Both the position numbers and the translations under genes were made by a program. Positions 9,724-63,373 of a stretch of 63,694 nucleotides of DNA are shown one piece after another. Within the stretch, counting starts at the first letter, position 1, and each line of letters opens with the position of its first letter. Source of the DNA: a virus; IMG/VR virus record IMGVR_UViG_3300047564_001096, positions 1 to 63,694 of that record. The stretch is one strand, 5' to 3'. Below the pieces are notes generated by a model. It was not told the origin of the DNA, did not search any database, and was given only the letters and a program-made list of their open reading frames with translations.

Positions 9724-10176
9724 ATGGCAACAAACAGATTACAAAGAGAATTAGAAAGTCGTACCCAGTCAGAACGACCAAAGCAGTGGTCGCAACCTGA
9801 GCTTCTCCCTGAACCAGATAAGCAAGCTGGATATGCCTACAGATGGATTCGTATTTCAACGCTTAACACTTCCGATCCTCGCAACCTCTCAGCGAAGTTA
9901 AGAGAAGGGTGGGAACCTGTAAGAATTGAAGAACAACCCAAATTACAACTGTTAGCTGATCCCAATAGTCGTTTTAAAGACAACGTTGAGATTGGTGGAT
10001 TGTTACTTTGCAAAACTCCACTTGAGTTTGTTGACCAGCGTAATAAACATTACTCTGACCAAGCTGATGCTCAAATGAAGGCTGTAGAGAACACTCTTAT
10101 GCGCCAGAATGACCCTCGCATGCCTCTCTTCAATGAAGGGAAAGTTACGATAGGTTCTTTTGGTAAAGGTAATTAA
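9724..10176 (+). CDS. Hypothetical head-region protein, 150 aa
   Basis: An unrecognised soluble protein between scaffold and capsid genes, two bases after the scaffold stop and with a GGAGG site. It has a Gln/Arg-rich N-terminus, a central GYAYRWIRI section and a C-terminal helix with many Gln and Met. Position suggests a role in head assembly or a minor head protein. No motif supports more. Confidence 0.75.
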   Translation: MATNRLQRELESRTQSERPKQWSQPELLPEPDKQAGYAYRWIRISTLNTSDPRNLSAKLREGWEPVRIEEQPKLQLLADPNSRFKDNVEIGGLLLCKTPLEFVDQRNKHYSDQADAQMKAVENTLMRQNDPRMPLFNEGKVTIGSFGKGN

Positions 10177-10200
10177 TTTTTAATTTTTAGGAGATTTATT

Positions 10201-10827
10201 ATGGCTTATCCAAGCGTAACAGCTCCATACGGCTTAGTTCCGATCAACAGCGTAGATGGCAAACCCTACGCTGGTGCAACCCGTCAATTGCCAATTGCAA
10301 GTACTTATAACACTGCAATTTATAACGGGGATATCGTAGCTCTAGTCGATGGTGGCACTATTGCATTATCAGGCGTTACAAACGACTCTACAACTACCGC
10401 TGCTAATTACACTTATGGTGTATTTATGGGCGTTCAGTATGTAAATAGTCAAGGTCAAACCGTTCAAGCTCAGTACTACCCAGGTAATGCTGCTGCTACT
10501 TCGGCTGTGGCTTACGTTGTTGACGATCCTATGGCTGCTTTTAAAGTAGCTGTTGTATATGCAAATAGCGTTGTAACAACCGTTAACCAAAGCGCTGTAG
10601 GTATTAACATGGCAATTGACCAAGGTACAGGTAGTGCTACTACTGGTAATTCTGGTGCAGGCGTTCTTGTTCCTACCGATAACTTAGGTAATGCAGCAAC
10701 CTTGCCAGTTCGTGTTGTTTCTGTAGTTCCAGAAACTGCTACTGGTACCAACGCCTTCACTGAAGTAGTAGTGAAGTTGAACAATCCGCAGATCCTTCGC
10801 CCAACAGCGATCGATTACGCAGCCTAA
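10201..10827 (+). CDS. Putative capsid decoration protein
   Basis: A 208-residue protein rich in Gly, Ala, Thr and Val with almost no helix-favouring stretches, so a beta-sandwich is likely. It lies immediately upstream of the capsid gene behind a perfect TAGGAG site, as expected of a highly expressed virion component. Decoration proteins usually sit here. I do not recognise a family. Confidence 0.6.
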   Translation: MAYPSVTAPYGLVPINSVDGKPYAGATRQLPIASTYNTAIYNGDIVALVDGGTIALSGVTNDSTTTAANYTYGVFMGVQYVNSQGQTVQAQYYPGNAAATSAVAYVVDDPMAAFKVAVVYANSVVTTVNQSAVGINMAIDQGTGSATTGNSGAGVLVPTDNLGNAATLPVRVVSVVPETATGTNAFTEVVVKLNNPQILRPTAIDYAA

Positions 10828-10840
10828 TAGGAGCTAAATA

Positions 10841-11746
10841 ATGGCTATTTCACGCGCACAACTACTGAAAGAGTTGCTCCCTGGCTTGAACGCATTGTTC
10901 GGTTTAGAGTATGCTCGCTACGGCGAAGAGCACAAAGAGATCTATGAAACAGAGACCTCTGAGCGTTCTTTTGAAGAAGAGACCAAGTTGTCTGGCTTTA
11001 GTGCTGCCCCCGTCAAGAACGAGGGTTCACCAATTGCTTATGACAATGCACAAGAGGCATTTACTGCTCGCTATACCCACGTAACGATTGCTCAAGGTTT
11101 CTCCCTCACGGAAGAGGCAATTGAGGACAACTTGTATGACAGCCTATCTGGTCGTTATACCAAGGCGTTAGCTCGTTCCATGGCGTATACCAAGCAAGTT
11201 CGTGCTGCTTCTATATTAAATACTGGCTTTACCGCTGCTACTGGCGGTGATGGTCAGCCTTTATTTAGCACTGCACACCCACTGGTTTCTGGCGGTACTA
11301 ACAGCAACGAACCTGCTGTTCCAGCTGACCTTAACGAGACTTCTTTGGAAGCCGCCGTTATTCAAATCAGCTTGTGGACAGACGAGCGTGGACTGTTGAT
11401 CGCTTCTAAACCACGTAAGTTGATCGTTCCACCTGCACTACAGTTCGTTGCAACTCGTTTGCTAGAAACCGAACTCCGTGTTGGTACTAACGACAACGAC
11501 ATCAACGCATTGAAGAACAATGGTTCGATCCCAGAAGGTTACACAATTAACCACTATCTGACCGACACCAATGCATGGTTCTTGTGCACTGATGTACCTA
11601 ACGGCATGAAGCACTTTGTTCGTACACCACTCCAGAATTCTATGGACGGTGATTTCGACACAGGCAACGTACGTTATAAAGCACGTGAGCGTTACTCATT
11701 TGGATTCTCGGATCCATTGGGAATGTTCGGTTCCCCAGGCGCTTAA
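10841..11746 (+). CDS. Major capsid protein
   Basis: A 301-residue HK97-fold-type coat protein, resembling the Mu gpT-like head subunit group. Features are an N-terminal helix, the section IAQGFSLTEEAIEDNLYD (about 85-105) typical of the capsid spine, and a GLLIASKPRKLIVPP strand. It has a strong TAGGAG site and is followed at once by a terminator, consistent with high-level expression. No maturation protease gene was seen nearby. A cleaved N-terminus is not evident. Confidence 0.85.
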   Translation: MAISRAQLLKELLPGLNALFGLEYARYGEEHKEIYETETSERSFEEETKLSGFSAAPVKNEGSPIAYDNAQEAFTARYTHVTIAQGFSLTEEAIEDNLYDSLSGRYTKALARSMAYTKQVRAASILNTGFTAATGGDGQPLFSTAHPLVSGGTNSNEPAVPADLNETSLEAAVIQISLWTDERGLLIASKPRKLIVPPALQFVATRLLETELRVGTNDNDINALKNNGSIPEGYTINHYLTDTNAWFLCTDVPNGMKHFVRTPLQNSMDGDFDTGNVRYKARERYSFGFSDPLGMFGSPGA

Positions 11747-35792: not shown

Positions 35793-38700
35793 GTGGCTAT
35801 AAAAGAATTTACTGGCGAATTAGAACCAGTTAAACCTAGCAGGTTAGTTGAATTTACTGGAGAGTTAGAAAAACCAGAAGAAGTTAAACCTGTAAAACCT
35901 GCGAGTTTTTCTGCTAAAGATACCGCTATTGCTTTAGGGCAAGGTATTGTTGGTGCTGGTAAATCTTTAACCGATGTGTTTGGTGCTGAGAACGTAGCTT
36001 CTAGAAAGCTAGGTGAGGTATCTAAAACGCTAGGGGAACAAATCTCTCCAGAGCGCCAAGCAGAAATGCAACGGCGCCAAGTTCTACAAGAAAAAGCTTC
36101 TAAAGGTACTTTAACTGAAGAAATTAGCGCTTACTTAGGTGGCGTAACTGAAGCCCCAGTCCAAGCTCTTGCACAAGGTTTAGGTTCAATCGTGCCATAC
36201 ATTGGCACAGGAATTATTGGCGGAATTGCTAAATTAGGTGGAGCAACAATCACGGCTTTAAATACTGTGGTAGGTGCGGCTCAAGGCGCTGGTTCTATTA
36301 AGGGTTCTTTATACGACAGCGTTAAACAAGAATTAGAGAAGTCAGGAATGAGTCCCAAAGAAGCTGCAGCTAAAGCTTCTAAAGCCCAAGAGTATCTTGG
36401 AGAAAACTTCTTAGACATAGCTGGTGGCTCTGCATTAGGTGGCGTAGGCGCTAGGTTTGGTGTTGAGAAACTATTGCAAAGAGGCGCTGCTGATAAGTTA
36501 AGCCCTAGTTTAATACCCCGTGTTGGTAAGGCAGCGTTGGCTGAAGCCCCATTAGAAGGAGCACAAGGTGCTCAAGAACAGTTAGCAATTAACCGTGCCC
36601 TACAAAAACAAGGTTTTGATGTTGATACATTCCAAGGCGTAGCAGGTGCTGCTGCTCGTGACGCAGCTGTTGGTGCTTTAACTGGCGCCGCAGTAGGTGT
36701 TCGTGGACCAAGCTCAGTTGCAGAAACACCGCCGCCTCCTACTACAGAACCTGGCAAAGAAACTACAACTGCGCCTCCCCCTGTACCGCCAGTAACACCG
36801 CCTACTACAGATGCTGCTACTGAAGCTCTTTTGGCTTCTACTATTGACCCCGTTACTGGACAGTTTGTACAACAGTTTGCTACTCCATCAGCAACAGAAA
36901 CGCCTGTTATAGCCGAAGCAGATAAGCAAGCCGCTATTAAAAAGGTTTCTGAACTAGAAATTGATAATGCTAGGATTCAAGCTAAATTAGCTGCTGGCGA
37001 ATACAAAGCGCCACAAGCAAAAGCTGCTGCACAAAACAAATTAGCAAAACAACAAGCACTCATTGATGAACTTAAAACACAAATAGGAGGTCAAGATGCT
37101 TTTCAACAGACTAACGCTGGAACAAGTGGAGTTGGCGCTGGAATACCTGGAGGATCCGCAACAACTGGAGCCGCCGCAGGAGCTACAGATACTGGACTTG
37201 GACGACCTGGAGTGGACAGCGATCAGGGTCTTGAATCAGCACCTCAAGACGGAGAGAGCGCACAGCAGCCTACATTAGATATAAATCAACTAGATGAAAT
37301 AGAGCTAGCTCGGTTACAAGAGTTAGCAGATGCTAGAGAAGCTGGTTATAACATTGATGCAGAGTTAGTTAATTTAGGCAATCAAGTTCAAGAAAGATTA
37401 GCTACTACAACAGAAGTAATTGACGAACAAGCATTAGCCGACCAAGAAGCTAAAGCCGCTGCCGCAGCAGAAGCATCACGCCTAGCTGAAGAACAAAGAT
37501 TAGCTACAGAAGCTCAAGCCCAAGCCGCAGAACAAGCACGCTTAGCTGAAGAACAGAGATTAGCCGCAGAACAACAAGCTGCGTTAGAAGCAGAGCAAGC
37601 TGCATTAAATGAAGAAGCTGCCGCTGAGTTAGCTGGTGAAGTAACACCTCCTACCGTTACACCCTCTACCGTTACACCCTCTACCGTTACACCCCCTACC
37701 GTTACACCCCCTACCGTTACACCCCCTACCGTTACACCTACCAAACCTCCTGTAGTTGAAGAGTTTACTGGTGAGTTAGACGAAGAAACACCACAGGGTG
37801 CAATAGAAACTAAAGTAAAAGCCTTTGAAGACATCCGTAAGCTATTGGCGTTTCCTGAAAAATTAGGCACTTTAGATAAAAAAGCAAAAACACCTGGCGT
37901 ACAGGGCGAAGTAATTAAGGAAGAGAAAGTAGCCAAACCAATTAAATGGCGTGGCAAGAAGGGTACTAAAACCGAAAACCCATCGCCTTATAACTTCTTA
38001 AACGAAAACGGCTACTACTCTGATAAGTCCCCAGAACAAATTGCAGAGCAAAGCACGGCTATTGCAGCTAAAGACAAAAAAGCTACCGTTAAAAATGCCG
38101 TAGAAGCTGGCGTTGAATCCGCTGCCTTTGATGAGGCTTACGACTTGTATGACAGCATTGCTTACGACGAAAAGGTATTGCCAGAAATCAAACAAGTAAT
38201 GGCTCAGCGTCAAGCTGCTAAAGATGCAGAAGTAGATGCGCTTAACGAAGAACGTAAAGCTAATCGTGAAGCTAAACGGGCGCAAATGACTCGTGATGGC
38301 AAGAGCGAAAAAGTCATTAAAGAAGCTTTATCTGTAATTAAGAACGTACGAAAAGTTAAATACCAAGAGACTAAGCCGCTTGAGTTTATGTCTGAGCAAG
38401 AAGTATTAGATCTGTTTAAAAAGAATATTGGTACTAAGACTGAAAAACAGATGGCAAAAGAAGGCGGTCAGGCTAGGATAGATGCTGCTAAAAATAGAAA
38501 CGCTTTTGTAGACGTACTAAACCCTAACGATAAAATTAAGTTCAGCATGATGGCTGAATCCATACTTGATATGGAGATTATCTCGGCTGTCCAGGACAAT
38601 AAGGTTACTACTGCTGGCGACAGGCGCACTGAAAATTACAGAAAGAAACAAGAAAAGAAAGTCATTAGCGAAGTTGAACAGCAACTTAAAGACGCTGAGA

Positions 38701-41700
38701 TAACTGCTAAGCAAATAGAACAGAAAGCTGAACGCATTGCCAAACGTGCTGAGGAAAAGAAACAGGAAAGAGCACAAGTAACAAAAGAAGTTGAAACTGA
38801 AGAGGCAGAAGCCAAGTCTAAACTTGTTGTTAGCATAGAAAAAAGTATTGTTGCAGGTAGCCTTGATACTGTTCTAGAAGTTATTGCAGATAAAAAGAAA
38901 GAAGTAAACGAGTCAACTACCAGAAACATTGCTCAGTCGTTTATAGACCTTGTTAGTGATTTTGGAAACATCACTATTCAGTTTGGTAATGTGCCAAAAG
39001 GCAAAGACGGTCAGTTTGACCCAAGCAACAATACTATTACTATTAAGGGTGAAAACGGCGTATATACGGGTGAACGTGCGTTAGATGAAACTGTTCTACA
39101 CGAGGTAGGGCACTACCTAACCGATCATATATTTGATAGCAAAGAAAATCAAAAAGCGTATTTAAATGGTATTAAAGACCCTGCTAAGCGTAAAGCAGCG
39201 CAAGATGCTATCAATCGCCTAAATAACAACTACCGTCTTGTAAAGAGCAAGCTTGGTAATAAGTTTAATATTCCGACAATTAAAGAATTCATTGCTGAGA
39301 TTTACTCAAACCCTAGATTCCAAGAAGCTGTAGCAGCGCTTGATACTGGCGAATTAGGTATTGATTACAAAAAGTTTGTTGAAACTAAACCCGAAACAGA
39401 GACCGAAGAAGCAGAAGGCTATGTAACTGGAACAGGTAAAGAAATTCCAGGTCCAGTTAAACAGTATGTGCCAGCTAAAGAAAGTCTGTTCCAGAAGATT
39501 GTTAAAAACATAGCAAACGTTCTTGGTTTTAATATCAAAGAAAAAGAAGGGTTTGTAAACGATCCAGCTAGAGGCGTAACTCTAAAACAAGCAATTGAAG
39601 ATATTGCTCGAATCATATCGTTGCCTACCGCAAATATACGTGGTACAGAAGTCTCTTATTCTACGGCTCCCGCCGCCGCTGCAAAGCCAGGTGACAAAAT
39701 ACCTAAGTATTTGCACGTAACAGATCCAGATTCTACTGACCCTAACGAAAACAAAGACTTTAATTTGCCAGCAAGACCTGTTCCTAGGTTACGTATGATG
39801 ATTAAAGAACTGTTTACAACAGTTAAGCCTTGGCGTGAGCTAGTAAGATTGTTCCAAGACAGAGCCTATTGGGGTAACGTTTTACAAAATCAATTAAATG
39901 CGTCTGGTCTAATTAACTTTGTAAATACTCCTGGTGAACCAAGCAAGGGCATAAATAATTTTATGACTCAAATTAACTTGGCTACTTCAAAAGGTCGTAA
40001 CATATACATGGAAAAAATATCAGGTCTGTATACAGACTTGAATTTAGCGGTTAATGGTTTTATGGATGCCACCAATAAAACAGTTGACGAAGCGCTTAAA
40101 ACTCTTCAGATATATTTGCAGGCTTTGCACGATTCAGAACGTAGAGATGTAAAGTACATATTTACTGTACCGCTTTCTAATAAAGAAAATATACCTCAAA
40201 AAGGCAGTAAGACTGGAATGATTAGCGCTTCTTTGCGTAGACAGCAAATTGTAGGCGACCCAGAAAAAGGTATTAAGGGTTTACTAGATAACCCAAACAT
40301 TACTGAAGCTCAGTCAAAAGCGCTGCGCAAAGAGTTAGACACTTATATCTTTGAAAAAGATGCCAAAGGCGAGTTTGTATTAGATGCTAACGGCTACAAA
40401 AAACCTAATACTAAATACGTAGATCCTTTGGGTTACAGCCCTACTGGCAATAAAGACATAAACGTAGCTAATCCTGCTTTTATACCTAGTGGTATGGAGC
40501 CGATAGAAGTAAAAACTATTGTTAAAAAATACGAAAGTCACCCACAAAAAGCTGAAATAGATGCTGTTATTAAACAGTTACAGGCTCTCCATAAAGTAAC
40601 TATAGAGCTAAATAAAGACGCTTATTACTGGGCACAGCCTGTAAGTAATAGGGTTGCGTTCTATGGATTTGAAAATTATGTACCGCTTAAAGCCAACAAA
40701 AACCACAAGATGCTTGACGAAGAATTGTCTTTAAATTTTGACGGTGTAGGCGAAGACGCAAGACGAGGTAAACAATTTCAAGACATAGCTCAAGCGTTTG
40801 TTGGACACATAGCTCCTTCTAATAACCCTGTACTGCAAAGTTTGTCAGAAGCTATTATCGCTGCTAATCGTGCTGGTAATGGCACTGATTTGACGTTGTC
40901 AATAAGAAATGCTTTAGAAAAAAGTGACTTAAATCCTGACGGTCAAGGTCTAATTAAAGGAACAGTAGTGCAACACATTCCGTTTAGTGAGCGTTCTAAG
41001 TCTGTTATTGACGCTATTAAACGAGAAAACACTGTATTTCACTACAACAAGGATGGCAGTATTGACGTGTTAGAGATCCGTGAGAAAAAAATCCGTGAGT
41101 CTATCCGTCGTACTTATGAGACTGCCAATCAGTTAACTCAGTTTGCTAACACAGTAACTAGCACGTTGGGTCAATTACACACTAGATATAACTTTAACTT
41201 TGCTCCGCTAAACTTTGTTCGTGACGCATTAACCAACGCTTGGGCTATTGGCGCTGGAATGGGTCCTAAAAAATCCGTAGAATTTATTACGCAGATAGCT
41301 GGAGTTGTAGCAAAAACTGGTTTCACAGGCAAAGCTTTTAAAGTAGCTGCCATGTACGAAAGTAAAAACGTTAATCAGTTAGAAGCCCTAGCAAAGAAAG
41401 ACCCTGATATTAGGGACATGTACGAGCTAATAAAAGAAGGCGGCATGGTGGAGTACATGGAAGGCTTGTCTATTAAGTCCAACCTAAACAAGCTTCGTAA
41501 AGAAGTAGGTCGTTCTGGAATAATGACTAAGTTAGACCAATTTAACAGAGTAATTGATATTTGGACTAACGTATTTGAAATTGCAAGCCGTTCCGCCGCC
41601 TACAGTGTTACTAAGAAAAGTTTCCATACTAAGAATATTGCTAAGGGAATGGATGACAAACCAGGTCCTAACGGCGAACCTTCTCCAGCGTTAAAAGCAG

Positions 41701-42971
41701 CGATGGTAGAAGCAGCTGACTTTACTAAAAACTTAGCTAACTTCCAAAAAGTTGGTGAATATGGTCGTGGTATGGGAGCAGCATTTATGTTCTTCCGCCC
41801 ATCTGCAACGGGCGCTGTTCGTGCTATCGAAGCTGTTGCTCCAGCGTTTAGAGATATAGAAGCTGCAGTTGCTGAGCTGCCCCCAATAATTAGAGATAAC
41901 AAAGAAGCTTTAGCTAAGTTTAGAAAAGACTACGCAAGCAAAAAGAAATCAGCCCAACAAATGATGACGGCTTTAATGTCTATGGGTATGCTTGCGTATT
42001 TAATTTCTTTCATGATGTCTGAAGAAGATGACATGGGCAGGAACAAAGCTGCAACAGATGACATGGGTCAATGGAATCGTTTCTGGCGCATTCATATTCC
42101 TGGCGTTGATACCCCGTTTCAAATGCCGTGGGGCTTTGGTTTAGGTTCTTTTATGGCAGCTGGCGCTCAAATGATGGCAGCGTTTATGGGTAAACAGTCG
42201 TTTGGCTCAGCGTTGACTAACGTAAGCACTCAGATTGCGCTTGATTCGTTTGTTCCAATTCCTGTATCCCGCATGAGCGCTGTCGAGAATCCTGGTATGT
42301 GGTTTATAGATTCTATTACGCCAAGCACATTGCGTCCTATAGTTGAGTTAGTAGTTAATAAAAACGGTTTAGGACAGGATATTAGAAACGTAGCTAGCAG
42401 CCGCCGTATGGGCGATGCTTTCTTGGGCGGCGACAATATCCCAGAGTCTTATAAAGATATGGCAGAGTACTTTAACGTAGCTACTGGCGGTTTTGTAGAT
42501 GTAAGTCCTAACGTTATGTACTTCTTATTTAATAGTTATATGGATGGACCTGCTAAATTAGGTGATTTAATTTATAACTCTATGTATTTAGTAACAGGCG
42601 AAAAAGAATTTAAAGCCAAGACTGACGTGCCGTTTATTGGTTCGTTCATCGGTGCTGCACCTAACGTTGATAGTAGAGAGTGGACATCTACCGAGAAACA
42701 AATTTTAGAAATGAAACGTCGGTTAAATGCTCCTAATCCAGATGCAGTAGATAAATTTTTAGACAACAACCCGCTTGCAGAAATAGTCACTAATTTGTAC
42801 GATCAAAATTTAGTTGAACTTAATCGACTTCGTAAAGAAGGTAACGATATTCGCGCAGGTGGGTATACGCCTAAAGAACGTGTTGAGCTTTTAGAAATGA
42901 ATAAGATGGAGCAAAACATGGTGAAGGCTAATCTAGTTGAGATGTTTAAGGACTACGACATTAAACCCTAA
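35793..42971 (+). CDS. Giant internal virion protein with HExxH metallopeptidase site
   Basis: 2392 residues from a GTG start with an AAGGA site. Near the N-terminus EFTGELE occurs twice, and EFTGELD recurs at about 657. Residues about 545-620 are an Ala/Glu/Gln coiled coil. A 15-bp tandem repeat codes for TPSTVTP/TPPTVTP at about 620-650. HEVGH (1103-1107), in LHEVGHYLTDHIF, is a zinc-peptidase site. A long helical region follows, with a hydrophobic segment near 2060 (MTALMSMGMLAYLISFMM). It is probably ejected into the cell; the peptidase may open the cell wall or mature other proteins. Confidence 0.7.
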   Translation: MAIKEFTGELEPVKPSRLVEFTGELEKPEEVKPVKPASFSAKDTAIALGQGIVGAGKSLTDVFGAENVASRKLGEVSKTLGEQISPERQAEMQRRQVLQEKASKGTLTEEISAYLGGVTEAPVQALAQGLGSIVPYIGTGIIGGIAKLGGATITALNTVVGAAQGAGSIKGSLYDSVKQELEKSGMSPKEAAAKASKAQEYLGENFLDIAGGSALGGVGARFGVEKLLQRGAADKLSPSLIPRVGKAALAEAPLEGAQGAQEQLAINRALQKQGFDVDTFQGVAGAAARDAAVGALTGAAVGVRGPSSVAETPPPPTTEPGKETTTAPPPVPPVTPPTTDAATEALLASTIDPVTGQFVQQFATPSATETPVIAEADKQAAIKKVSELEIDNARIQAKLAAGEYKAPQAKAAAQNKLAKQQALIDELKTQIGGQDAFQQTNAGTSGVGAGIPGGSATTGAAAGATDTGLGRPGVDSDQGLESAPQDGESAQQPTLDINQLDEIELARLQELADAREAGYNIDAELVNLGNQVQERLATTTEVIDEQALADQEAKAAAAAEASRLAEEQRLATEAQAQAAEQARLAEEQRLAAEQQAALEAEQAALNEEAAAELAGEVTPPTVTPSTVTPSTVTPPTVTPPTVTPPTVTPTKPPVVEEFTGELDEETPQGAIETKVKAFEDIRKLLAFPEKLGTLDKKAKTPGVQGEVIKEEKVAKPIKWRGKKGTKTENPSPYNFLNENGYYSDKSPEQIAEQSTAIAAKDKKATVKNAVEAGVESAAFDEAYDLYDSIAYDEKVLPEIKQVMAQRQAAKDAEVDALNEERKANREAKRAQMTRDGKSEKVIKEALSVIKNVRKVKYQETKPLEFMSEQEVLDLFKKNIGTKTEKQMAKEGGQARIDAAKNRNAFVDVLNPNDKIKFSMMAESILDMEIISAVQDNKVTTAGDRRTENYRKKQEKKVISEVEQQLKDAEITAKQIEQKAERIAKRAEEKKQERAQVTKEVETEEAEAKSKLVVSIEKSIVAGSLDTVLEVIADKKKEVNESTTRNIAQSFIDLVSDFGNITIQFGNVPKGKDGQFDPSNNTITIKGENGVYTGERALDETVLHEVGHYLTDHIFDSKENQKAYLNGIKDPAKRKAAQDAINRLNNNYRLVKSKLGNKFNIPTIKEFIAEIYSNPRFQEAVAALDTGELGIDYKKFVETKPETETEEAEGYVTGTGKEIPGPVKQYVPAKESLFQKIVKNIANVLGFNIKEKEGFVNDPARGVTLKQAIEDIARIISLPTANIRGTEVSYSTAPAAAAKPGDKIPKYLHVTDPDSTDPNENKDFNLPARPVPRLRMMIKELFTTVKPWRELVRLFQDRAYWGNVLQNQLNASGLINFVNTPGEPSKGINNFMTQINLATSKGRNIYMEKISGLYTDLNLAVNGFMDATNKTVDEALKTLQIYLQALHDSERRDVKYIFTVPLSNKENIPQKGSKTGMISASLRRQQIVGDPEKGIKGLLDNPNITEAQSKALRKELDTYIFEKDAKGEFVLDANGYKKPNTKYVDPLGYSPTGNKDINVANPAFIPSGMEPIEVKTIVKKYESHPQKAEIDAVIKQLQALHKVTIELNKDAYYWAQPVSNRVAFYGFENYVPLKANKNHKMLDEELSLNFDGVGEDARRGKQFQDIAQAFVGHIAPSNNPVLQSLSEAIIAANRAGNGTDLTLSIRNALEKSDLNPDGQGLIKGTVVQHIPFSERSKSVIDAIKRENTVFHYNKDGSIDVLEIREKKIRESIRRTYETANQLTQFANTVTSTLGQLHTRYNFNFAPLNFVRDALTNAWAIGAGMGPKKSVEFITQIAGVVAKTGFTGKAFKVAAMYESKNVNQLEALAKKDPDIRDMYELIKEGGMVEYMEGLSIKSNLNKLRKEVGRSGIMTKLDQFNRVIDIWTNVFEIASRSAAYSVTKKSFHTKNIAKGMDDKPGPNGEPSPALKAAMVEAADFTKNLANFQKVGEYGRGMGAAFMFFRPSATGAVRAIEAVAPAFRDIEAAVAELPPIIRDNKEALAKFRKDYASKKKSAQQMMTALMSMGMLAYLISFMMSEEDDMGRNKAATDDMGQWNRFWRIHIPGVDTPFQMPWGFGLGSFMAAGAQMMAAFMGKQSFGSALTNVSTQIALDSFVPIPVSRMSAVENPGMWFIDSITPSTLRPIVELVVNKNGLGQDIRNVASSRRMGDAFLGGDNIPESYKDMAEYFNVATGGFVDVSPNVMYFLFNSYMDGPAKLGDLIYNSMYLVTGEKEFKAKTDVPFIGSFIGAAPNVDSREWTSTEKQILEMKRRLNAPNPDAVDKFLDNNPLAEIVTNLYDQNLVELNRLRKEGNDIRAGGYTPKERVELLEMNKMEQNMVKANLVEMFKDYDIKP
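37651..37740 (+). repeat. 15-bp coding tandem repeat
   Basis: Six copies of ctaccgttacaccc(y) code for the five-residue unit TP[SP]TV. It forms a Pro/Thr linker within the 2392-residue protein. Third-position T/C differences split the units into two types, so the array expanded in steps. Confidence 0.85.
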
Positions 42972-55597: not shown

Positions 55598-55968
55598 GAG
55601 AAATGCACCTCCATATATTGATTAACATTAGATTCATTGATGACAAAAGCATAGCCACCATTCTTTTCAATCCGATCAAGGTTATCCATTTGCAATGCCG
55701 TAGGTTTGTTAGCACCCGACTTAATCTCTAAGCCGTAGAACTTTCCTTTGTGACACACGACAATGTCAGGCGCACCGCTACTTCCGTATCCACCTGTGGC
55801 TGGCATGATGTAATAGATTCCTTTTTCTTTAAGATATTTCTTAACTACGTCTTTAACTTTTCCTTCGGGTGTCATCGCCATATCAATTTCTTCCTGTTCT
55901 TGTTGTTGAAGGGTAGTCTGTCTCTTCCAAAACCTACCCCAATAAAGTCTTTCTTCTTTATTCACCAC
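55594..55968 (-). CDS. VRR-NUC domain nuclease
   Basis: 124 residues from a GTG. The VRR-NUC core is clear: SSGAPDIVVCHKGKFYGLEIKSG gives D68, E81 and K83, and Q93 follows. Such stand-alone nucleases act on branched or flapped DNA. An ATG at 55881 (residue 30, behind AGGA) is an alternative start and would give the bare domain; the long form fills space that would otherwise be empty. Confidence 0.85.
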   Translation of the reverse strand: MVNKEERLYWGRFWKRQTTLQQQEQEEIDMAMTPEGKVKDVVKKYLKEKGIYYIMPATGGYGSSGAPDIVVCHKGKFYGLEIKSGANKPTALQMDNLDRIEKNGGYAFVINESNVNQYMEVHFS

Positions 55969-56305
55969 GCAATGCCATTAAAGATTTATAGGAGAGGATG
56001 ATGCAAAACCAACTGTCACTTGCTCGCCATCCTATATCTCTGAAATTACTATCAACTGTCGTAGTCATCAGATGTAATTTAGTTACGTCATGGTCGCTTA
56101 CAATCTGCTTCGCATTTGCCAGCACCATCGCCATCTTGGTCTTAACTTCATCAGGCAATGTGTGTTCATCAAATACCCGATTAAAGTCATCACCAACATA
56201 TATGGTGTAGGAGTTTCCTTCCCTATGCAAAGGGACACGATAGAGGTTGAAGTCATACTGGTGAACTACTGGGCTTAAATCCCTGAGCATGGAATCAATG
56301 TCCAA
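55958..56305 (-). CDS. Hypothetical early protein, 115 aa
   Basis: An unrecognised soluble protein, mixed alpha/beta (NLYRVPLHREGNSYTIYVGD, TLPDEVKTKMAMVLANAKQI). Its start overlaps the preceding gene by 31 bases. It belongs to the block of unknowns downstream of the VWA gene, and the section STRPVNEFNLHW in the preceding product resembles no part of it. Confidence 0.65.
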   Translation of the reverse strand: MDIDSMLRDLSPVVHQYDFNLYRVPLHREGNSYTIYVGDDFNRVFDEHTLPDEVKTKMAMVLANAKQIVSDHDVTKLHLMTTTVDSNFRDIGWRASDSWFCIILSYKSLMALRGE

Positions 56306-57210
56306 TGTAGGTTGAACTCATTTACTGGGCGAGTAGAAATATTTATCAGGTCAAGGTCAGGGTTGTATCCACTCTTGGCTGGAACGATATTTGCGTAGAA
56401 CTCGGTAACATTCTTACCCTCTGCATGAACCTTGTTCATAAGCATGACTGCCTTGAACTCGTCAGGCAATTCCTTTACACGCTTGAACGGCTTGACTTCA
56501 TGGAAGTAATACTCGTCGTGACCTTGTCTTGGCATCGCTTTAACTGAACCTATAACTAAATGATTTAACTTATCTGCACCGATTGCATAGAACTCATTGA
56601 GGAAAAATCTTTCAATATCTTTTCGCTTCTCTACCTTGATTCTATCTTGCCCATTCCATTTGTCAAGTACTTCTTTACAATTATTTAGATTTAAATTACT
56701 AGGACTTTCCCCTAGTAAGATTACCTTGAGCATTGTATGAATTTCGTCGGCAGAAAAATTAGTTTGCTTCCAATCTCGACCATGATGAGAGTCCATCTGA
56801 TTAATACCAGCATTAAAAGATTCTTTACAGACTGTCATTAGTGTTCCACCGATGGGTGGAACGACATTTTGTCGCTTAAGTGTAGCCATCAGCGTTGAGA
56901 GTTTTTTACTATGCAAAGTCTCTCGGTCAGCAGAGTCAGAGCCACGCTCTTTCTTGTAGAAAGGCGAGCGATAGTTATACACGTCATGCCCATCTTCCTT
57001 GTCTACCCACACCTTTGCCACCATGAAACCGCTAGATTCAGCGAGTAAAAAGCTAGTAGGACTACTACGGCTTAGAGCATGAGGATCAACTTTGTCTACA
57101 ACCTTCAGACCATACTTAAAGTTTAGTTCCTGTATGAGTCTTTTAGCTGACGAGTCATTAATAAGATGCTCGAGATGCTCACTTTCAAATCCTTCGTATA
57201 TGAGTTTCAT
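56275..57210 (-). CDS. Hypothetical early protein, 311 aa
   Basis: I start at the ATG at 57210 (MKLIYEGFES) behind AAGGAGAAG, not at an upstream in-frame codon. Mixed charge, no signal peptide, no recognised motif. It is coupled to the 55958 gene and separated by 11 bases from the 57222 gene. Position in the MoxR/VWA block makes it a candidate partner of that machine. An exact palindrome lies inside it. Confidence 0.7.
   Translation of the reverse strand: MKLIYEGFESEHLEHLINDSSAKRLIQELNFKYGLKVVDKVDPHALSRSSPTSFLLAESSGFMVAKVWVDKEDGHDVYNYRSPFYKKERGSDSADRETLHSKKLSTLMATLKRQNVVPPIGGTLMTVCKESFNAGINQMDSHHGRDWKQTNFSADEIHTMLKVILLGESPSNLNLNNCKEVLDKWNGQDRIKVEKRKDIERFFLNEFYAIGADKLNHLVIGSVKAMPRQGHDEYYFHEVKPFKRVKELPDEFKAVMLMNKVHAEGKNVTEFYANIVPAKSGYNPDLDLINISTRPVNEFNLHWTLIPCSGI
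56844..56861. promoter_or_regulatory. Exact palindrome inside the 311-aa gene
   Basis: TTCCAC-CGATGG-GTGGAA. It codes for VPPIGG on the minus strand. Confidence 0.75.
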
Positions 57211-57221
57211 ATTACTTCTCC

Positions 57222-58238
57222 TTATAGTTGTTCTACTTCTTTGCCATTGACAAACACATCCACGCCCCACTCACTTGGAGGGTATGCTTCGTTAGGTACA
57301 TACTCTGTGAGTTTCATAACTGATGGATTACTCTTGTACAACTCCTTGTTCAGCTTACGTTTGAGATTACTGAACACTACGTCTAACTCCACCTCTCGCC
57401 TGTAACTACTGCCATTGGGTTCAGCGAACGCACGATGTTTTGAATACAAACTCTGAACGTCGTACGCAAGTGCGTACGCAATGCCAGCATCTAGTGATGC
57501 AGTATTTAGATTCTCCTCGGCAAACTTAATAAGTTTCTCTTGCTCTGCGCTATGCAAAGACCAATTTTCTGTTGTTATGCCCAATGACTTTAATACATCA
57601 GCCATCGCTTCCATGTAGCCTTTCCAGTCCATCGCCTTGAGCATGACTTCGTTGATTTTGTAGAAGTCTGTGTATCGGCTAAGAAAGTACTTGGCATCCT
57701 TACGACTAACACGCTTGCCAACAACTTTGTAAACGCTACTCTCATGGGGCATCATCGTCTCGCAGTTAAGTCTCATACCTTTAAAGATTGGATGAAAGAT
57801 TGAACTCACGTAGTTTGACTTATATATCATTCCACCATGACGTGAACTCCTAAGAAACCACCCACTCGCCCAGTTAGACATAATCATGTTGTCGCCCTGT
57901 CCGTAATATTTAGCAGTAAATTCAAACGTATTGTCTGAACGCACTATGCCCAACTCACTAGGAACTGAACTATAACTTTCATAGACGGTGTTTCCTTCCC
58001 AGTCTTCTCTCTCGTGAATAGTGCCTTGGTTGGCTTGCCACTCTTCTTTCGTATGCTCATTACGCTTATGGGTATAACCATACCGCACCACATACACTTG
58101 CTCGCCGTTACGCTCTTCGCTTACAAAGTCTTTAGTGTTGTGTCGTCTGTCACCAATGGGAAACCGATTGGTTGTCCCTCGGTATGGCTTTTGAGTTTTA
58201 GTAATGTCGGTAAGTCTGTCCCACGTCAATGCTTTCAT
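57222..58238 (-). CDS. Hypothetical early protein, 338 aa
   Basis: Unrecognised, soluble, Tyr/Arg-rich in its first half (RFPIGDRRHNTKDFVSEE, YVVRYGYTHKRNEHT), helical in the second (EQEKLIKFAEENLNTASL). AAGGAGAAGG site. It lies two genes below the VWA protein. No nucleotide-binding or metal motif is visible. Confidence 0.7.
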   Translation of the reverse strand: MKALTWDRLTDITKTQKPYRGTTNRFPIGDRRHNTKDFVSEERNGEQVYVVRYGYTHKRNEHTKEEWQANQGTIHEREDWEGNTVYESYSSVPSELGIVRSDNTFEFTAKYYGQGDNMIMSNWASGWFLRSSRHGGMIYKSNYVSSIFHPIFKGMRLNCETMMPHESSVYKVVGKRVSRKDAKYFLSRYTDFYKINEVMLKAMDWKGYMEAMADVLKSLGITTENWSLHSAEQEKLIKFAEENLNTASLDAGIAYALAYDVQSLYSKHRAFAEPNGSSYRREVELDVVFSNLKRKLNKELYKSNPSVMKLTEYVPNEAYPPSEWGVDVFVNGKEVEQL

Positions 58239-58423
58239 TGTCCTTCTCCTTTAAAGTGTTTATCTATATCGTTTAGTATGTCTTTCCAAATCTTTACACT
58301 AAACTCATCGCCTTCGTGTGTTGCTATCCTTCCTAATGCTATCGTGTATGCTCCTTCTCCATGACGTTTTATCAAGTCTTCTACAAGCCCATGTTTGATT
58401 CGTGCATATCCGCCGTCGCCCAT
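58235..58423 (-). CDS. Small hypothetical protein, 62 aa
   Basis: Begins MGDGGYARIKHGLVEDLIKR; helical, charged. It lies between the VWA gene (two bases away) and the 338-aa gene (four-base overlap), so it is part of one translational unit. Function unknown. Confidence 0.65.
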   Translation of the reverse strand: MGDGGYARIKHGLVEDLIKRHGEGAYTIALGRIATHEGDEFSVKIWKDILNDIDKHFKGEGQ

Positions 58424-58425
58424 GC

Positions 58426-59742
58426 TTACTCCCTTTCAAAGATAACTTTCTTACCGCATGGAATTTCTAAGCCACGGTTCTGAGTAATCATCCACAGGGT
58501 AGGTGGAACGATATTCCACTCGATGTCATGCTCGACGTAGCCATCGGTGAACACAATCACACACTCTGCGTTAAGTTTCTTCTCATTGATGTAAGTCGCA
58601 ACAGACCCCACGTGAGTACCACCACCGCCTAATGGTTTTAGTAATGATGCAATGTTGTTAAACGATTCGGGCTTGAAGACTTGTTCGCCATGCACCATGG
58701 TGTCCCACCACAAAACACGTACCGTTTCGGGTTGCACAAGGTCACAGATGGATGCCAGTTCTGAGGCAAACTCGGTAAGTTCAGCACCGCCGATAGAGCC
58801 TGACGTATCAATGGCTACGATAACCTCGCCGATAGTTTCGTTCTCCATGCTTGGCATATAAATATCATTTGCCATCTGACGCTTGTTCATCTTGCGCCAA
58901 GTGAACTCATCCTTGCCTTTCATCGCTGATGAAACAAAGTCACGTAGTGCATCTCGCCAATCAATCTTGGGTTCAAGTAACTCTCCGATAGCACGTGGCA
59001 TCTTTGCACCCATACGACCAGCGAGCATACCGCCCTCACGCAAAGCCTTATCAATCCCATCCGATAGTTCTTTGAGTTCTTCGGGAGTTATGTCCTTAAA
59101 TGATTCCCAGTCATGCTCATCGAAACCATCGCCACCCATGTCATACTCTTTGCCATTGGCTTTGATTTTGTTATCTTGCTTTCCACCCTGTGATGGAGAA
59201 CTATTCTGCGAATCATCATTGCCATCGCCTTGTTCGTCATCATCACTAGGTGAGCCTGATGAGCTACCCTTACCTTTACCTCGCTGAGGATTCTCTTTAC
59301 GGATATAGTTGTAGACCTCACGCATATTCCAGTTGTGAAAGAATGGGTCATACAACGCACCTTCGGGCAACGCAACAATAGCCTCGTTACCTCCGCTAAT
59401 AGTTCCTTTGATGTTGAAGATGATGTCGTTGACTACAAAATCCGCCGCCATGTTTGCAATCTTAGAATCTTCCTTGAACATATCCTTGCCACGTGGGATT
59501 TGTTTCAATGCCACATGAAGATTCTCATGGAGGACAAGACCACGCAACTTGGGTTCACAGTCGATAGTCTCTAAGAATGGCTTAGAGTATCTCTTGTTGA
59601 CACCATCGGTGTATGCCGTAAACATATCATCGCTCACCTCTGACTTACCCATCAGCATGACACCGCTATACAACGCAGTCTCAGGATGTTTCATTAGTGC
59701 GATGTGCGCTTTCTTCAAGCGAACTTCTTGTTTGTTATTCAT
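58426..59742 (-). CDS. VWA-domain protein with HExxH metallopeptidase-like N-terminus (CobT/DUF2201-like)
   Basis: 438 residues. N-terminus: HENLH (72-76) followed by NMAADFVVND (about 97-106), the zinc-peptidase-like part of the DUF2201 family. Residues about 153-195 are an acidic, Ser/Gly-rich linker as in CobT. C-terminus: a VWA domain with MIDAS D-T-S-G-S (312-316), the Thr in GGGTH (about 375) and FTDG (about 397-400). VWA proteins of this kind work with MoxR AAA+ ATPases, which is the gene just upstream. The target is unknown. Confidence 0.85.
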   Translation of the reverse strand: MNNKQEVRLKKAHIALMKHPETALYSGVMLMGKSEVSDDMFTAYTDGVNKRYSKPFLETIDCEPKLRGLVLHENLHVALKQIPRGKDMFKEDSKIANMAADFVVNDIIFNIKGTISGGNEAIVALPEGALYDPFFHNWNMREVYNYIRKENPQRGKGKGSSSGSPSDDDEQGDGNDDSQNSSPSQGGKQDNKIKANGKEYDMGGDGFDEHDWESFKDITPEELKELSDGIDKALREGGMLAGRMGAKMPRAIGELLEPKIDWRDALRDFVSSAMKGKDEFTWRKMNKRQMANDIYMPSMENETIGEVIVAIDTSGSIGGAELTEFASELASICDLVQPETVRVLWWDTMVHGEQVFKPESFNNIASLLKPLGGGGTHVGSVATYINEKKLNAECVIVFTDGYVEHDIEWNIVPPTLWMITQNRGLEIPCGKKVIFERE

Positions 59743-59745
59743 TTG

Positions 59746-59841
59746 TTACTCCTTGTTAATTAGACAATATAAAAATCCTGTAATCACACCCAAACCGTAC
59801 ATGATTAAAGACCACATAAATATTCCGATTCCGACATCCAT
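59746..59841 (-). CDS. Single-pass membrane microprotein, 31 aa
   Basis: A 31-codon frame, begins MDVGIGIFMWSLIMYGLG, almost entirely one membrane helix ending in INKE. Strong GGAGG site. Its stop overlaps the ribosome site of the VWA gene, so the two are coupled. It lies exactly between the MoxR and VWA genes and could tether them to the membrane. Confidence 0.6.
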   Translation of the reverse strand: MDVGIGIFMWSLIMYGLGVITGFLYCLINKE

Positions 59842-59845
59842 AGCT

Positions 59846-59863
59846 TTCCACCTCCTCGTGGTT
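59846..59863. promoter_or_regulatory. Degenerate palindrome over the microprotein's ribosome site
   Basis: TTCCAC-CTCCTC-GTGGTT, preceded by ATAGCT as in other copies. On the mRNA the spacer is the GAGGAG ribosome site, so binding or folding here could control translation. Confidence 0.6.
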
Positions 59864-59869
59864 AGTTAA

Positions 59870-60943
59870 TTAGAACAACTCGTGATTGTTTTTAGCCCAC
59901 TCTGCAATCTGCATATTGTGGCGAGCCAACTTGGTTGCCTTGGTGTTACGCATCATCATGGTAAAGAACACCGCTTGCACCTCTGAACTAGGAATCTTAT
60001 TAACGAACTTCATGAACTTGTTCAACTCGTCTTGAGTCTCTAGCACGTCGACTGCTTGGAACATAATCATTAACTGCGCTGATACCTCGTCGGGAACTTT
60101 AACTCCGTCTGGATCTTTGACGATGTCTTTTACATCCATCAGAGTCTTCTCTAGCGATAGAAACGCTGACATATCACCAGCACCAGCAAGACCGATAGTG
60201 CCAGCCAATGCGACCATCGTTGCGTTCTCACCCAATGTATCCCGATTACGCACAATCACGTCGCACTTAGCTAGAGACCTTGGCGAACAGAATGATAGTT
60301 GAGTCTTCTTGGGGTTGAACACGTATGGGTTGTCATCTTGGTTGCCATCACGATACGATGCCAATGTCCTTGGGAACAACGCAACGAACGCACGAACAAC
60401 ACGAGAGATACCTCTAGATGATGCCCACTCTAGCCAGTCATTGACTGATGGTTTGCTCATCTCCATGATGCACACACGATTACCAGCATGGGCGAGCATT
60501 GTGTCGCCGACCCCGTCGCTTGCATTATTCGACGTGCCGAAAACTATGCTTCCACTTGGTAGTGGAACGTCACCTACCATTCTCTCCAACATTAGTCGGG
60601 TAAAGATAACTTGCAATAGCTTTGGTGCTTTCATGAACTCGTCGAGCAAGATGACCTTTGGCTTAGGAGAGTCAAGCTTGAAGAGAGACGAAACATAATA
60701 CTCAAGAGACTTACTAGCATGATTGGGTATCGTCATACCTACGTCGGACATATCCTTGACAGGACAGTCCACATAGATATAGTCGTACTTGTCGCCATGG
60801 TCTGCTTCCATCATGGACAATATAGAAGTCTTACCACACCCAGGCTCAGAGACTATGATTGGTGTGATTTCTGAACCTATTAGGGGAATGACTTTGCGTA
60901 ACTCGTTGATGGTTACGGTTGCATTGAAGTTAAGTTTGCTCAT
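59870..60943 (-). CDS. MoxR-type AAA+ ATPase (CobS-like)
   Basis: 357 residues. Walker A EPGCGKTS (33-40), Walker B VILLDEF (97-103), sensor 1 GTSNN (136-140) and a sensor-2-like SPRSLAKC (about 220-227). The family forms hexameric rings that work with VWA proteins in chelation or in protein assembly. Neighbours are a DUF3150-like gene upstream and the VWA gene downstream. An exact palindrome lies in the gene. Confidence 0.9.
   Translation of the reverse strand: MSKLNFNATVTINELRKVIPLIGSEITPIIVSEPGCGKTSILSMMEADHGDKYDYIYVDCPVKDMSDVGMTIPNHASKSLEYYVSSLFKLDSPKPKVILLDEFMKAPKLLQVIFTRLMLERMVGDVPLPSGSIVFGTSNNASDGVGDTMLAHAGNRVCIMEMSKPSVNDWLEWASSRGISRVVRAFVALFPRTLASYRDGNQDDNPYVFNPKKTQLSFCSPRSLAKCDVIVRNRDTLGENATMVALAGTIGLAGAGDMSAFLSLEKTLMDVKDIVKDPDGVKVPDEVSAQLMIMFQAVDVLETQDELNKFMKFVNKIPSSEVQAVFFTMMMRNTKATKLARHNMQIAEWAKNNHELF
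60550..60567. promoter_or_regulatory. Exact palindrome inside the MoxR gene
   Basis: TTCCAC-TTGGTA-GTGGAA. It codes for VPLPSG on the minus strand, between the Walker B and sensor 1 regions. Confidence 0.75.
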
Positions 60944-60959
60944 TTGTATTTCTCCTTGA

Positions 60960-61871
60960 TTAGATTGAATTGAAACTACCGAACTTGGAAAGAATATCGT
61001 CTATGCCTTCCTTAACATGATGGCGAACTGCATCGGAATCTCGAATGTCCTCTGCCTTCACACCACGTAATACTTCTTCTAGCGATGCACGTGCCTGTTC
61101 CAATCCTGAATCATTCTTAAGATTGAATCGCTTAAAACTTTCGCACATTTCTAGGGCTTTTTGTATCGTTGTGTCGTAAATCTTGCGACGCTTGGTGCGA
61201 ATCTCGCCGTTGACCTCTGACTCATCGACACCGCAACAATGCGAGATGGACTCCATAACCTCGACCATGCGTTCTGATTGTTCTTGCGCAATGGATTCGA
61301 TAATGCCGTGAGCCTGCTTTTTGTATGTATTAAACAAGTCATCAGCGATGTCCTCTGCTATCCCACAGCGAAAGTCGTTCATTGGCACTTCGGACACATA
61401 CAGGTTCAAGCTGAACTTGGAGTGAACTTGTTCTTTAGTTGGGTAGTCATCTCGGTTGAACATAGTACCTTGCTTGAAAGCCATGTCGGACACGATTGAA
61501 TCGTAGTCGCTTGTTAATGAATCCACTAACGCATGGAAAGCTATTTGATGTTCGTGATACTCTTGCTTGAACTTAGGCACGTCAACGCTTGGCAACAAAT
61601 TCTGCGATTGATTCCAGCGATAGGTGCGACGTTGAAGCCAGTTGTATACGGTCTGCCGATAATTCACCACCGCCTTGTGCTTGGGATGATTAGCCAACAG
61701 ATTCTTAACATACCTGCCCGCGGACTTATCCGCATTCTTTGCCGTAGTAACTTCATCACTGATGCCACGGTCTTGCTTGGTTGCTGACCACACGCTGATG
61801 TCTACGCTTACTAGGACTGCTGAACTAGCAAGGCTAATCAGGTGATCGGGTTTGGTTAATTCCATATTCAT
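60960..61871 (-). CDS. DUF3150-like protein, 303 aa
   Basis: Helix-rich protein beginning near SLASSAVLVSVDISVWSATK. Its middle has FRCGIAEDIADDLFNTYKKQ and it ends in a coiled coil. It resembles DUF3150 proteins, which I know from MoxR-VWA gene groups. The call rests partly on that context. AAGGAG site; first gene of the machine, downstream of the promoter at 62008-62036. A degenerate palindrome lies at 61521-61538. Confidence 0.65.
   Translation of the reverse strand: MNMELTKPDHLISLASSAVLVSVDISVWSATKQDRGISDEVTTAKNADKSAGRYVKNLLANHPKHKAVVNYRQTVYNWLQRRTYRWNQSQNLLPSVDVPKFKQEYHEHQIAFHALVDSLTSDYDSIVSDMAFKQGTMFNRDDYPTKEQVHSKFSLNLYVSEVPMNDFRCGIAEDIADDLFNTYKKQAHGIIESIAQEQSERMVEVMESISHCCGVDESEVNGEIRTKRRKIYDTTIQKALEMCESFKRFNLKNDSGLEQARASLEEVLRGVKAEDIRDSDAVRHHVKEGIDDILSKFGSFNSI
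61521..61538. promoter_or_regulatory. Degenerate palindrome inside the DUF3150-like gene
   Basis: ATCCAC-TAACGC-ATGGAA followed by AGCTATTTG. Two mismatches to the exact dyad, but the right flank fits. Confidence 0.5.
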
Positions 61872-61895
61872 ACACTTCTCCTTGGTTTGATTGAA

Positions 61896-61982
61896 CTACG
61901 CTAAAAGTAAATCCACTATCACGTGGTAAGCTAAATAGCCCACCGCTACAACAACTAATAACTTCCCCCAAAAGTCTTCCAT
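61896..61982 (-). CDS. Single-pass membrane microprotein, 28 aa
   Basis: A 28-codon frame (begins MEDFWGKLLVVVAVGYLAYH) behind a GGAGGAGG site, 26 bases below the -10 of the promoter at 62008. It is one membrane helix. First gene of the MoxR/VWA transcript. The palindrome at 61911-61928 is part of it. Confidence 0.6.
   Translation of the reverse strand: MEDFWGKLLVVVAVGYLAYHVIVDLLLA
61911..61928. promoter_or_regulatory. Degenerate palindrome in the MoxR/VWA leader
   Basis: ATCCAC-TATCAC-GTGGTA followed by AGCTAAATAG, the same flank as at 306 and 63268. Confidence 0.6.
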
Positions 61983-62007
61983 AAAAGTATCCTCCTCCAG
62001 TTTCATA

Positions 62008-62036
62008 AGTATACCATAACTTTACATTTGAGTCAA
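62008..62036 (-). promoter_or_regulatory. Strong sigma70-like promoter P1
   Basis: On the minus strand, TTGACT (62031-62036), 17 bp, TATACT (62008-62013). The 29 bases are identical to those at 63345-63373. Above it lies an A-rich tract with AGTCATACA, also shared. Confidence 0.9.
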
Positions 62037-63344: not shown

Positions 63345-63373
63345 AGTATACCATAACTTTACATTTGAGTCAA
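63345..63373 (-). promoter_or_regulatory. Strong sigma70-like promoter P2
   Basis: On the minus strand, TTGACT (63368-63373), 17 bp, TATACT (63345-63350), identical over 29 bases to P1. It drives the right-end early genes. Confidence 0.9.

Follow-up and report, generated by a model that had tools for sequence, protein, structure and literature searches.

A DUF3150-like protein linked to the MoxR/HExxH-VWA pair in phages and plasmids: a possible ternary protein-remodelling machine

The window analysed in this work is the whole 63,694-nucleotide (63.7-kb) stretch of an aquatic phage (IMG/VR virus record IMGVR_UViG_3300047564_001096), whose minus-strand arm carries a compact run of genes at positions 55958–62036. 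All of the genes that an earlier sequence-only reading listed at this place are present on the minus strand. The operon opens with a sigma70-like promoter (TTGACT-N17-TATACT; 62008–62036) in which a TG precedes the −10 box, followed by a hydrophobic 28 amino acid (aa) predicted membrane microprotein (61896–61982), a 303 aa DUF3150-like protein (60960–61871), a 357 aa AAA+ ATPase of the MoxR/midasin clade (59870–60943), a 31 aa predicted membrane microprotein in the gap between the MoxR and VWA genes (59746–59841), and a 438 aa VWA protein with an N-terminal zincin-like HExxH domain (58426–59742). Four further genes complete the run, encoding proteins of 62 aa (58235–58423; overlapping the next gene by 4 nt, with homologues in 20 of 80 loci), 338 aa (57222–58238), 311 aa (56275–57210) and 115 aa (55958–56305; overlapping the adjacent genes); the gene taken as encoding 311 aa has a longest open reading frame of 331 aa. 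Downstream of the operon lie genes for a nuclease-like protein (phrog_93), a DUF3310-related protein with matches in the "nucleotide kinase" families of phages, and DNA polymerase A (PolA). The terminase, portal and capsid genes are on the opposite strand of the record, and Synechococcus phage MinM2/Planktothrix phage Pag-Yong1, phage DSL-LC04 and the pelagiphages HTVC023P and HTVC027P are the nearest named relatives as judged by terminase and capsid. The plus strand also contains a 2392 aa open reading frame at 35793–42971.

The MoxR protein matches the ATPase family phrog_1297 (E 3.8e-53), and the nearest solved structure to its family profile is Midasin (4.3e-35). The VWA protein matches the Pfam families DUF2201_N, a "putative metallopeptidase" (3.7e-24), and DUF2201, which is VWA-like (7.9e-16), as well as phrog_1314 (E 1.6e-77); in a comparison with the gluzincin/minigluzincin peptidases, its zincin-like domain gives only weak profile matches, to projannalysin and MJ1213 (E 0.03–0.07). 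In MoxR the Walker A and B residues are unvarying among the homologues that cover them and sensor 1 is conserved, whereas the VWA protein has an invariant zincin motif HENLH (H72, E73 and H76) with D101 and a complete MIDAS (DxSxS, T, D; viz. D312, S314, S316, T376 and D400) in all 62 clade homologues. H72, E73, H76, N97, D101, N105 and the MIDAS residues are also kept in distant homologues at 21–31% identity, in a comparison of 14 proteins whose sources include N4 gp25, S-TIM5, Bacillus phage G, an Enterobacter phage, MinM2 and four plasmids; P258 and W262, which lie between the peptidase and VWA domains in the DUF2201 linker, are invariant in the same set. Loss of the HExxH and MIDAS residues in homologues, which had been named in advance as an observation that would speak against a functional machine, was thus not seen. 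The same reading had described a CobS/CobT-like pair with a zinc-peptidase-like N-terminus on the VWA protein: the AAA+ and VWA-zincin motifs are indeed intact, but the closest relatives are the phage gp24/gp25 proteins (DUF2201), with Midasin closest among solved structures, and no window protein has a CobT or CobS match in Pfam, so the CobS/CobT cobaltochelatase was rejected as the identity of the pair.

The pair itself is already known. A tblastn search with the VWA protein matched 643 phage records, including many from N4-like phages, and N4 itself encodes the pair as gp24/gp25 in identical order. As in the window, a MoxR-clade AAA+ protein (phrog_1297) is followed there by a DUF2201 metallopeptidase-VWA protein (phrog_1314) with the same motifs, at 21–23% identity. 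The genes for gp24 and gp25 are core genes of the N4-like phages and are middle transcripts in N4 (PMC4193335). A MoxR-vWA metallopeptidase pair of the same two-protein architecture, with the metallopeptidase at the N-terminus of the vWA protein, has been reported from group 2.2 jumbo phages, where a role in virion assembly was proposed and a third, DUF3150 component is not described (Iyer 2021, PMC7824862). No data on the essentiality of N4 gp24/25 were found; the main text of the CRISPRi-ART paper mentions neither MoxR, VWA nor Schitoviridae. It may be noted that phrog_1314 is labelled "HNH endonuclease" by PHROGs and that this name has spread to many RefSeq phage records; the family is actually a DUF2201 metallopeptidase-VWA protein.

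What is new in the present work is the third gene. The 303 aa protein has no significant match to a Pfam or PHROG family and a direct tblastn search in named phages returned nothing, so that profiles were needed to reveal its link to DUF3150. A hidden Markov model (HMM) built from 65 relatives retrieved a MinM2 protein annotated as "DUF3150 domain-containing" (3.5e-16), profile-profile alignment of the family with cyanophage and plasmid DUF3150-type proteins by hhalign gave 99.8% (E 1.8e-30) over 279 columns, and the reverse HMM search gave 1.3e-36. Its AF2 model is of moderate quality (pLDDT 75.5, pTM 0.47), and Foldseek found eight significant viral fold matches to it, a DUF3150 phage protein being first (E 8.2e-13). 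The best match in the PDB, at Z 8.8, is a generic helical bundle and is not trusted. The gathering threshold of Pfam PF11348 (DUF3150) is reached by none of the window, MinM2/Pag-Yong1 and plasmid proteins (a Cupriavidus relative scores 22.1 against a threshold of 24.9), and "DUF3150-like" is hence the correct term. On these profile comparisons we regard the protein as a genuine relative of DUF3150 with full-length homology, which bears out its earlier assignment even without a Pfam match. In the literature searched, largely papers available without subscription, no mention of DUF3150 was found, nor any paper in which three or more of the terms DUF2201, MoxR, plasmid and PRTRC come together.

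The genes for MoxR, the DUF3150-like protein and the VWA protein are adjacent in three settings, viz. the window clade, the cyanophage MinM2/Pag-Yong1, and plasmids of Burkholderiales and Rhodovastum. For the window clade 80 loci were retrieved with MoxR, and the subset of eligible loci differs for each gene: the DUF3150-like gene is present in 63 of 63 and the VWA gene in 70 of 70, where it neighbours MoxR each time. The MinM2 DUF3150 protein has relatives on 42 plasmids. In all seven of the plasmid regions examined, genes for a DUF3150-type and a VWA protein adjoin each other, and an AAA+/ATP-binding gene immediately precedes them, except in one region where it is about 3.6 kb upstream. When genomes were scanned with a single plasmid protein, 33 Burkholderiales loci were retrieved, closely related and here counted as a single lineage, in which VWA is adjacent in 33 and MoxR in 32, the sole locus without MoxR being ended by a contig edge; Rhodovastum, Simplicispira, MinM2 and the window clade provide further lineages. 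All three genes are homologous between the settings (E 1.3e-36, 4.8e-54 and 6.6e-35). However, the order is DUF3150-MoxR-VWA in the window clade and MoxR-DUF3150-VWA on the plasmids, whose trio frequently has PRTRC or type IV secretion system (T4SS) genes at its flanks and shows no 338, 311 or 115 aa partners among its annotated neighbours. The persistence of the linkage despite altered order and neighbours is our main evidence that the three genes form a functional trio. The profile search of an N4 stretch, unlike the window, revealed no DUF3150 gene, and no trio matches were found in the stretches searched of DSL-LC04, HTVC023P and 023Pt_psg01, which indicates that the trio is accessory.

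Some further observations concern these relatives. On the Burkholderiales plasmids the trio is located in a backbone block beside a protein of about 480–520 aa. MinM2, Pag-Yong1 and Planktothrix phage Pra-JY27 (PP438419.1 is among the records) are of equal length (65,014 b) with identical DUF3150 proteins, and are probably a single phage under three names. An "AcrVA2" anti-CRISPR label on the gene two downstream of VWA in Pag-Yong1 (41429–42469; 10084–11124 in a second record) has no support from Pfam, PHROG or PDB sequences and was set aside.

The survey of gene neighbourhoods had been suggested to establish whether the partner genes travel with MoxR and VWA. This is the case for DUF3150 across phages and plasmids, but the 338, 311 and 115 aa proteins travel with the pair only inside one phage clade, where they occur in 60 of 62, 50 of 50 and 44 of 47 eligible loci, respectively; hhalign detected no homologues of them in MinM2. 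The downstream nuclease-like and DUF3310-like genes, which are not part of the module, are equally constant in this clade, so that co-occurrence within it demonstrates vertical synteny only and is discounted as functional evidence. Among loci retrieved by the 338 aa protein, the VWA gene is present wherever the contig reaches. After correction for PolA, pairwise distances correlate at 0.62 for VWA and the 338 aa protein, 0.58 for VWA and the 311 aa protein and 0.64 for MoxR and VWA, against −0.18 to 0.20 for the nuclease-like neighbour, the one control gene, over 20 non-redundant loci; these values do no more than suggest a tie of the 338 and 311 aa candidate partners to VWA. AF2 gave a high-confidence model of the 338 aa protein (pLDDT 92.2), but the best PDB match of the latter (Z 3.9) is an uninformative designed protein and it otherwise matches only two uncharacterised phage proteins. 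No significant Pfam or PDB match was found for the 311 aa protein. In most loci a 137 aa gene precedes the trio; a divergent subclade has it downstream of VWA.

Both of the predicted membrane microproteins that had been reported exist as open reading frames. For the one at the operon start, the 28 aa form is preferred over a 36 aa form beginning at an upstream ATG (62006), because the 28 aa start has a strong Shine-Dalgarno with GGAGGAGG directly upstream, whereas the ATG of the longer frame abuts the −10 box. Of 70 loci, 18 have a hydrophobic microprotein frame at the corresponding site, and predicted transmembrane (TM) microproteins of several sequence types occupy the MoxR–VWA gap in 38 of 70, gaps shorter than about 60 nt having none. 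One of these types, found in this gap in many loci, is a recurrent single-TM protein of about 62 aa with a conserved soluble tail (e.g. at 6764–6961 in one locus and 11196–11387 in another). That the microproteins serve as a membrane tether is a guess.

The window contains exactly two identical copies of the 29-bp promoter sequence TTGACTCAAATGTAAAGTTATGGTATACT, one heading the arm (63345–63373) and one at the operon start, and both copies share GTCATAC upstream; promoter-like sites in the region overall are no more numerous than expected by chance. Of 65 loci, 49% have a strong sigma70-like site no more than 250 nt upstream of the gene for the DUF3150-like protein, against 0% of control stretches, which were taken inside the VWA gene and differ in base composition. 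The promoter makes early expression by the host RNA polymerase plausible. The earlier proposal of early expression is consistent with this conserved site, but the N4 gp24/25 pair is transcribed in the middle and not the early phase (PMC4193335).

Four MoxR-vWA ternary conflict systems have been described, with VMAP, iSTAND, FtsH and beta-propeller components, DUF3150 not being among them (Kaur 2020, PMC7159879). They likewise combine MoxR, vWA and a conserved third protein; the window trio differs from them in its DUF3150-like third protein, its N-terminal zincin, the absence of variable C-terminal effectors and its location on phages and plasmids. When the DUF3150-like and VWA proteins were scanned against Pfam, no VMAP, inactive STAND, FtsH or beta-propeller domain was found, although a highly diverged iSTAND could escape such a scan. 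In Midasin (Rea1) and NorQ/NorD, too, a bound protein is remodelled by a MoxR-clade AAA+ ring that works with a MIDAS VWA domain, but Midasin is a single giant protein and NorQD acts in metal insertion. To our knowledge, neither carries a zincin domain on its VWA protein.

The best reading of these results is that the trio represents a fifth MoxR-vWA ternary remodelling machine, and we consider it an even matter whether it is an ATP-driven protein-remodelling machine of mobile elements, probably made early. In such a machine MoxR would assemble into an AAA+ ring, on which the VWA domain of the 438 aa protein would dock while gripping a target through its MIDAS metal. The ring would then pull on the VWA-zincin protein, by analogy with NorQD, in which the ATPase twists and stretches the linker of its VWA partner (PMC13036017), and the N-terminal zincin would possibly cut the target. 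The helical DUF3150 protein may be an obligate third subunit, a target adaptor or a substrate. In the phage, the machine would probably be expressed early from the host-type promoter, with the membrane microproteins and the 338, 311 and 115 aa proteins as clade-specific accessories. Formation of a complex by the trio is likely, proteolysis by the zincin could as readily prove right as wrong, and a target at the interface of element and host, rather than in the virion, is our leading guess, with slightly less than an even chance. A more specific possibility, which we advance tentatively and hold to be on the unlikely side, is that a DUF3150-based ternary machine of phages and conjugative plasmids captures a host protein that matters to both lifestyles (e.g. 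a defence or replication factor) and remodels it by proteolysis directly after DNA entry.

Other functions for the trio have to be weighed against this remodelling machine. It could act as an assembly chaperone and processing protease for structural proteins of the phage itself, a role proposed for the jumbo phages with the peptidase-less pair of the Acidianus two-tailed virus as precedent (PMC7824862), and roseophage RPP1 has a second structural module near gp24/gp25 (PMC4193335). However, the operon in the window lies among replication and small early-type genes, distant from the structural genes and behind a host-type promoter, and the complete trio occurs on plasmids. Plasmids produce no virion; the function that phages and plasmids share is thus unlikely to be capsid or virion assembly, and we consider this explanation unlikely, though it carries some weight. 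Exclusion of competitors is common to phages and plasmids, and the trio might be a conflict system of the MoxR-vWA immune type directed against competing phages or plasmids, in which a sensor protein would trigger a peptidase effector; the variable third components of the known ternary systems include some with peptidase domains (Kaur 2020, PMC7159879). Against this, the matches obtained with PADLOC are weak and partial only (DrmD 0.0026, IetA 0.0042), variable effector domains were not seen, and the third protein is conserved, with a median identity of 70% within the clade, rather than diversifying, all of which makes an immune role quite doubtful.

The order trio, nuclease, small genes, PolA, which is kept across the window clade, together with the PRTRC (ParB-related cassette) and T4SS genes on either side of the trio on several plasmids, would suit a remodeller of the element's own replication or partition complexes. 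This argument is one of position, however, and the trios of MinM2 and Rhodovastum have other neighbours, so that we regard such a role as improbable. Least in keeping with the sequence is a metal-insertion machine resembling CobS/CobT or NorQ/NorD and acting on a metalloenzyme, which has the shared MoxR-VWA architecture in its favour but is very hard to reconcile with a VWA protein of the DUF2201 type bearing a zincin domain and with the absence of Pfam CobT/CobS matches. None of the arm genes scanned was recognised as a chelatase gene, in agreement with the earlier view that chelation of metal into a tetrapyrrole is unlikely.

The gp24/gp25 pair belongs to the core genes of N4-like phages and is found in hundreds of phages under a mistaken database label. 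The identification of a third protein that accompanies the pair, together with its link to plasmids, narrows the options for the function of this machinery, and since both the trio-bearing plasmids and N4 are laboratory systems, they provide a tractable test bed.
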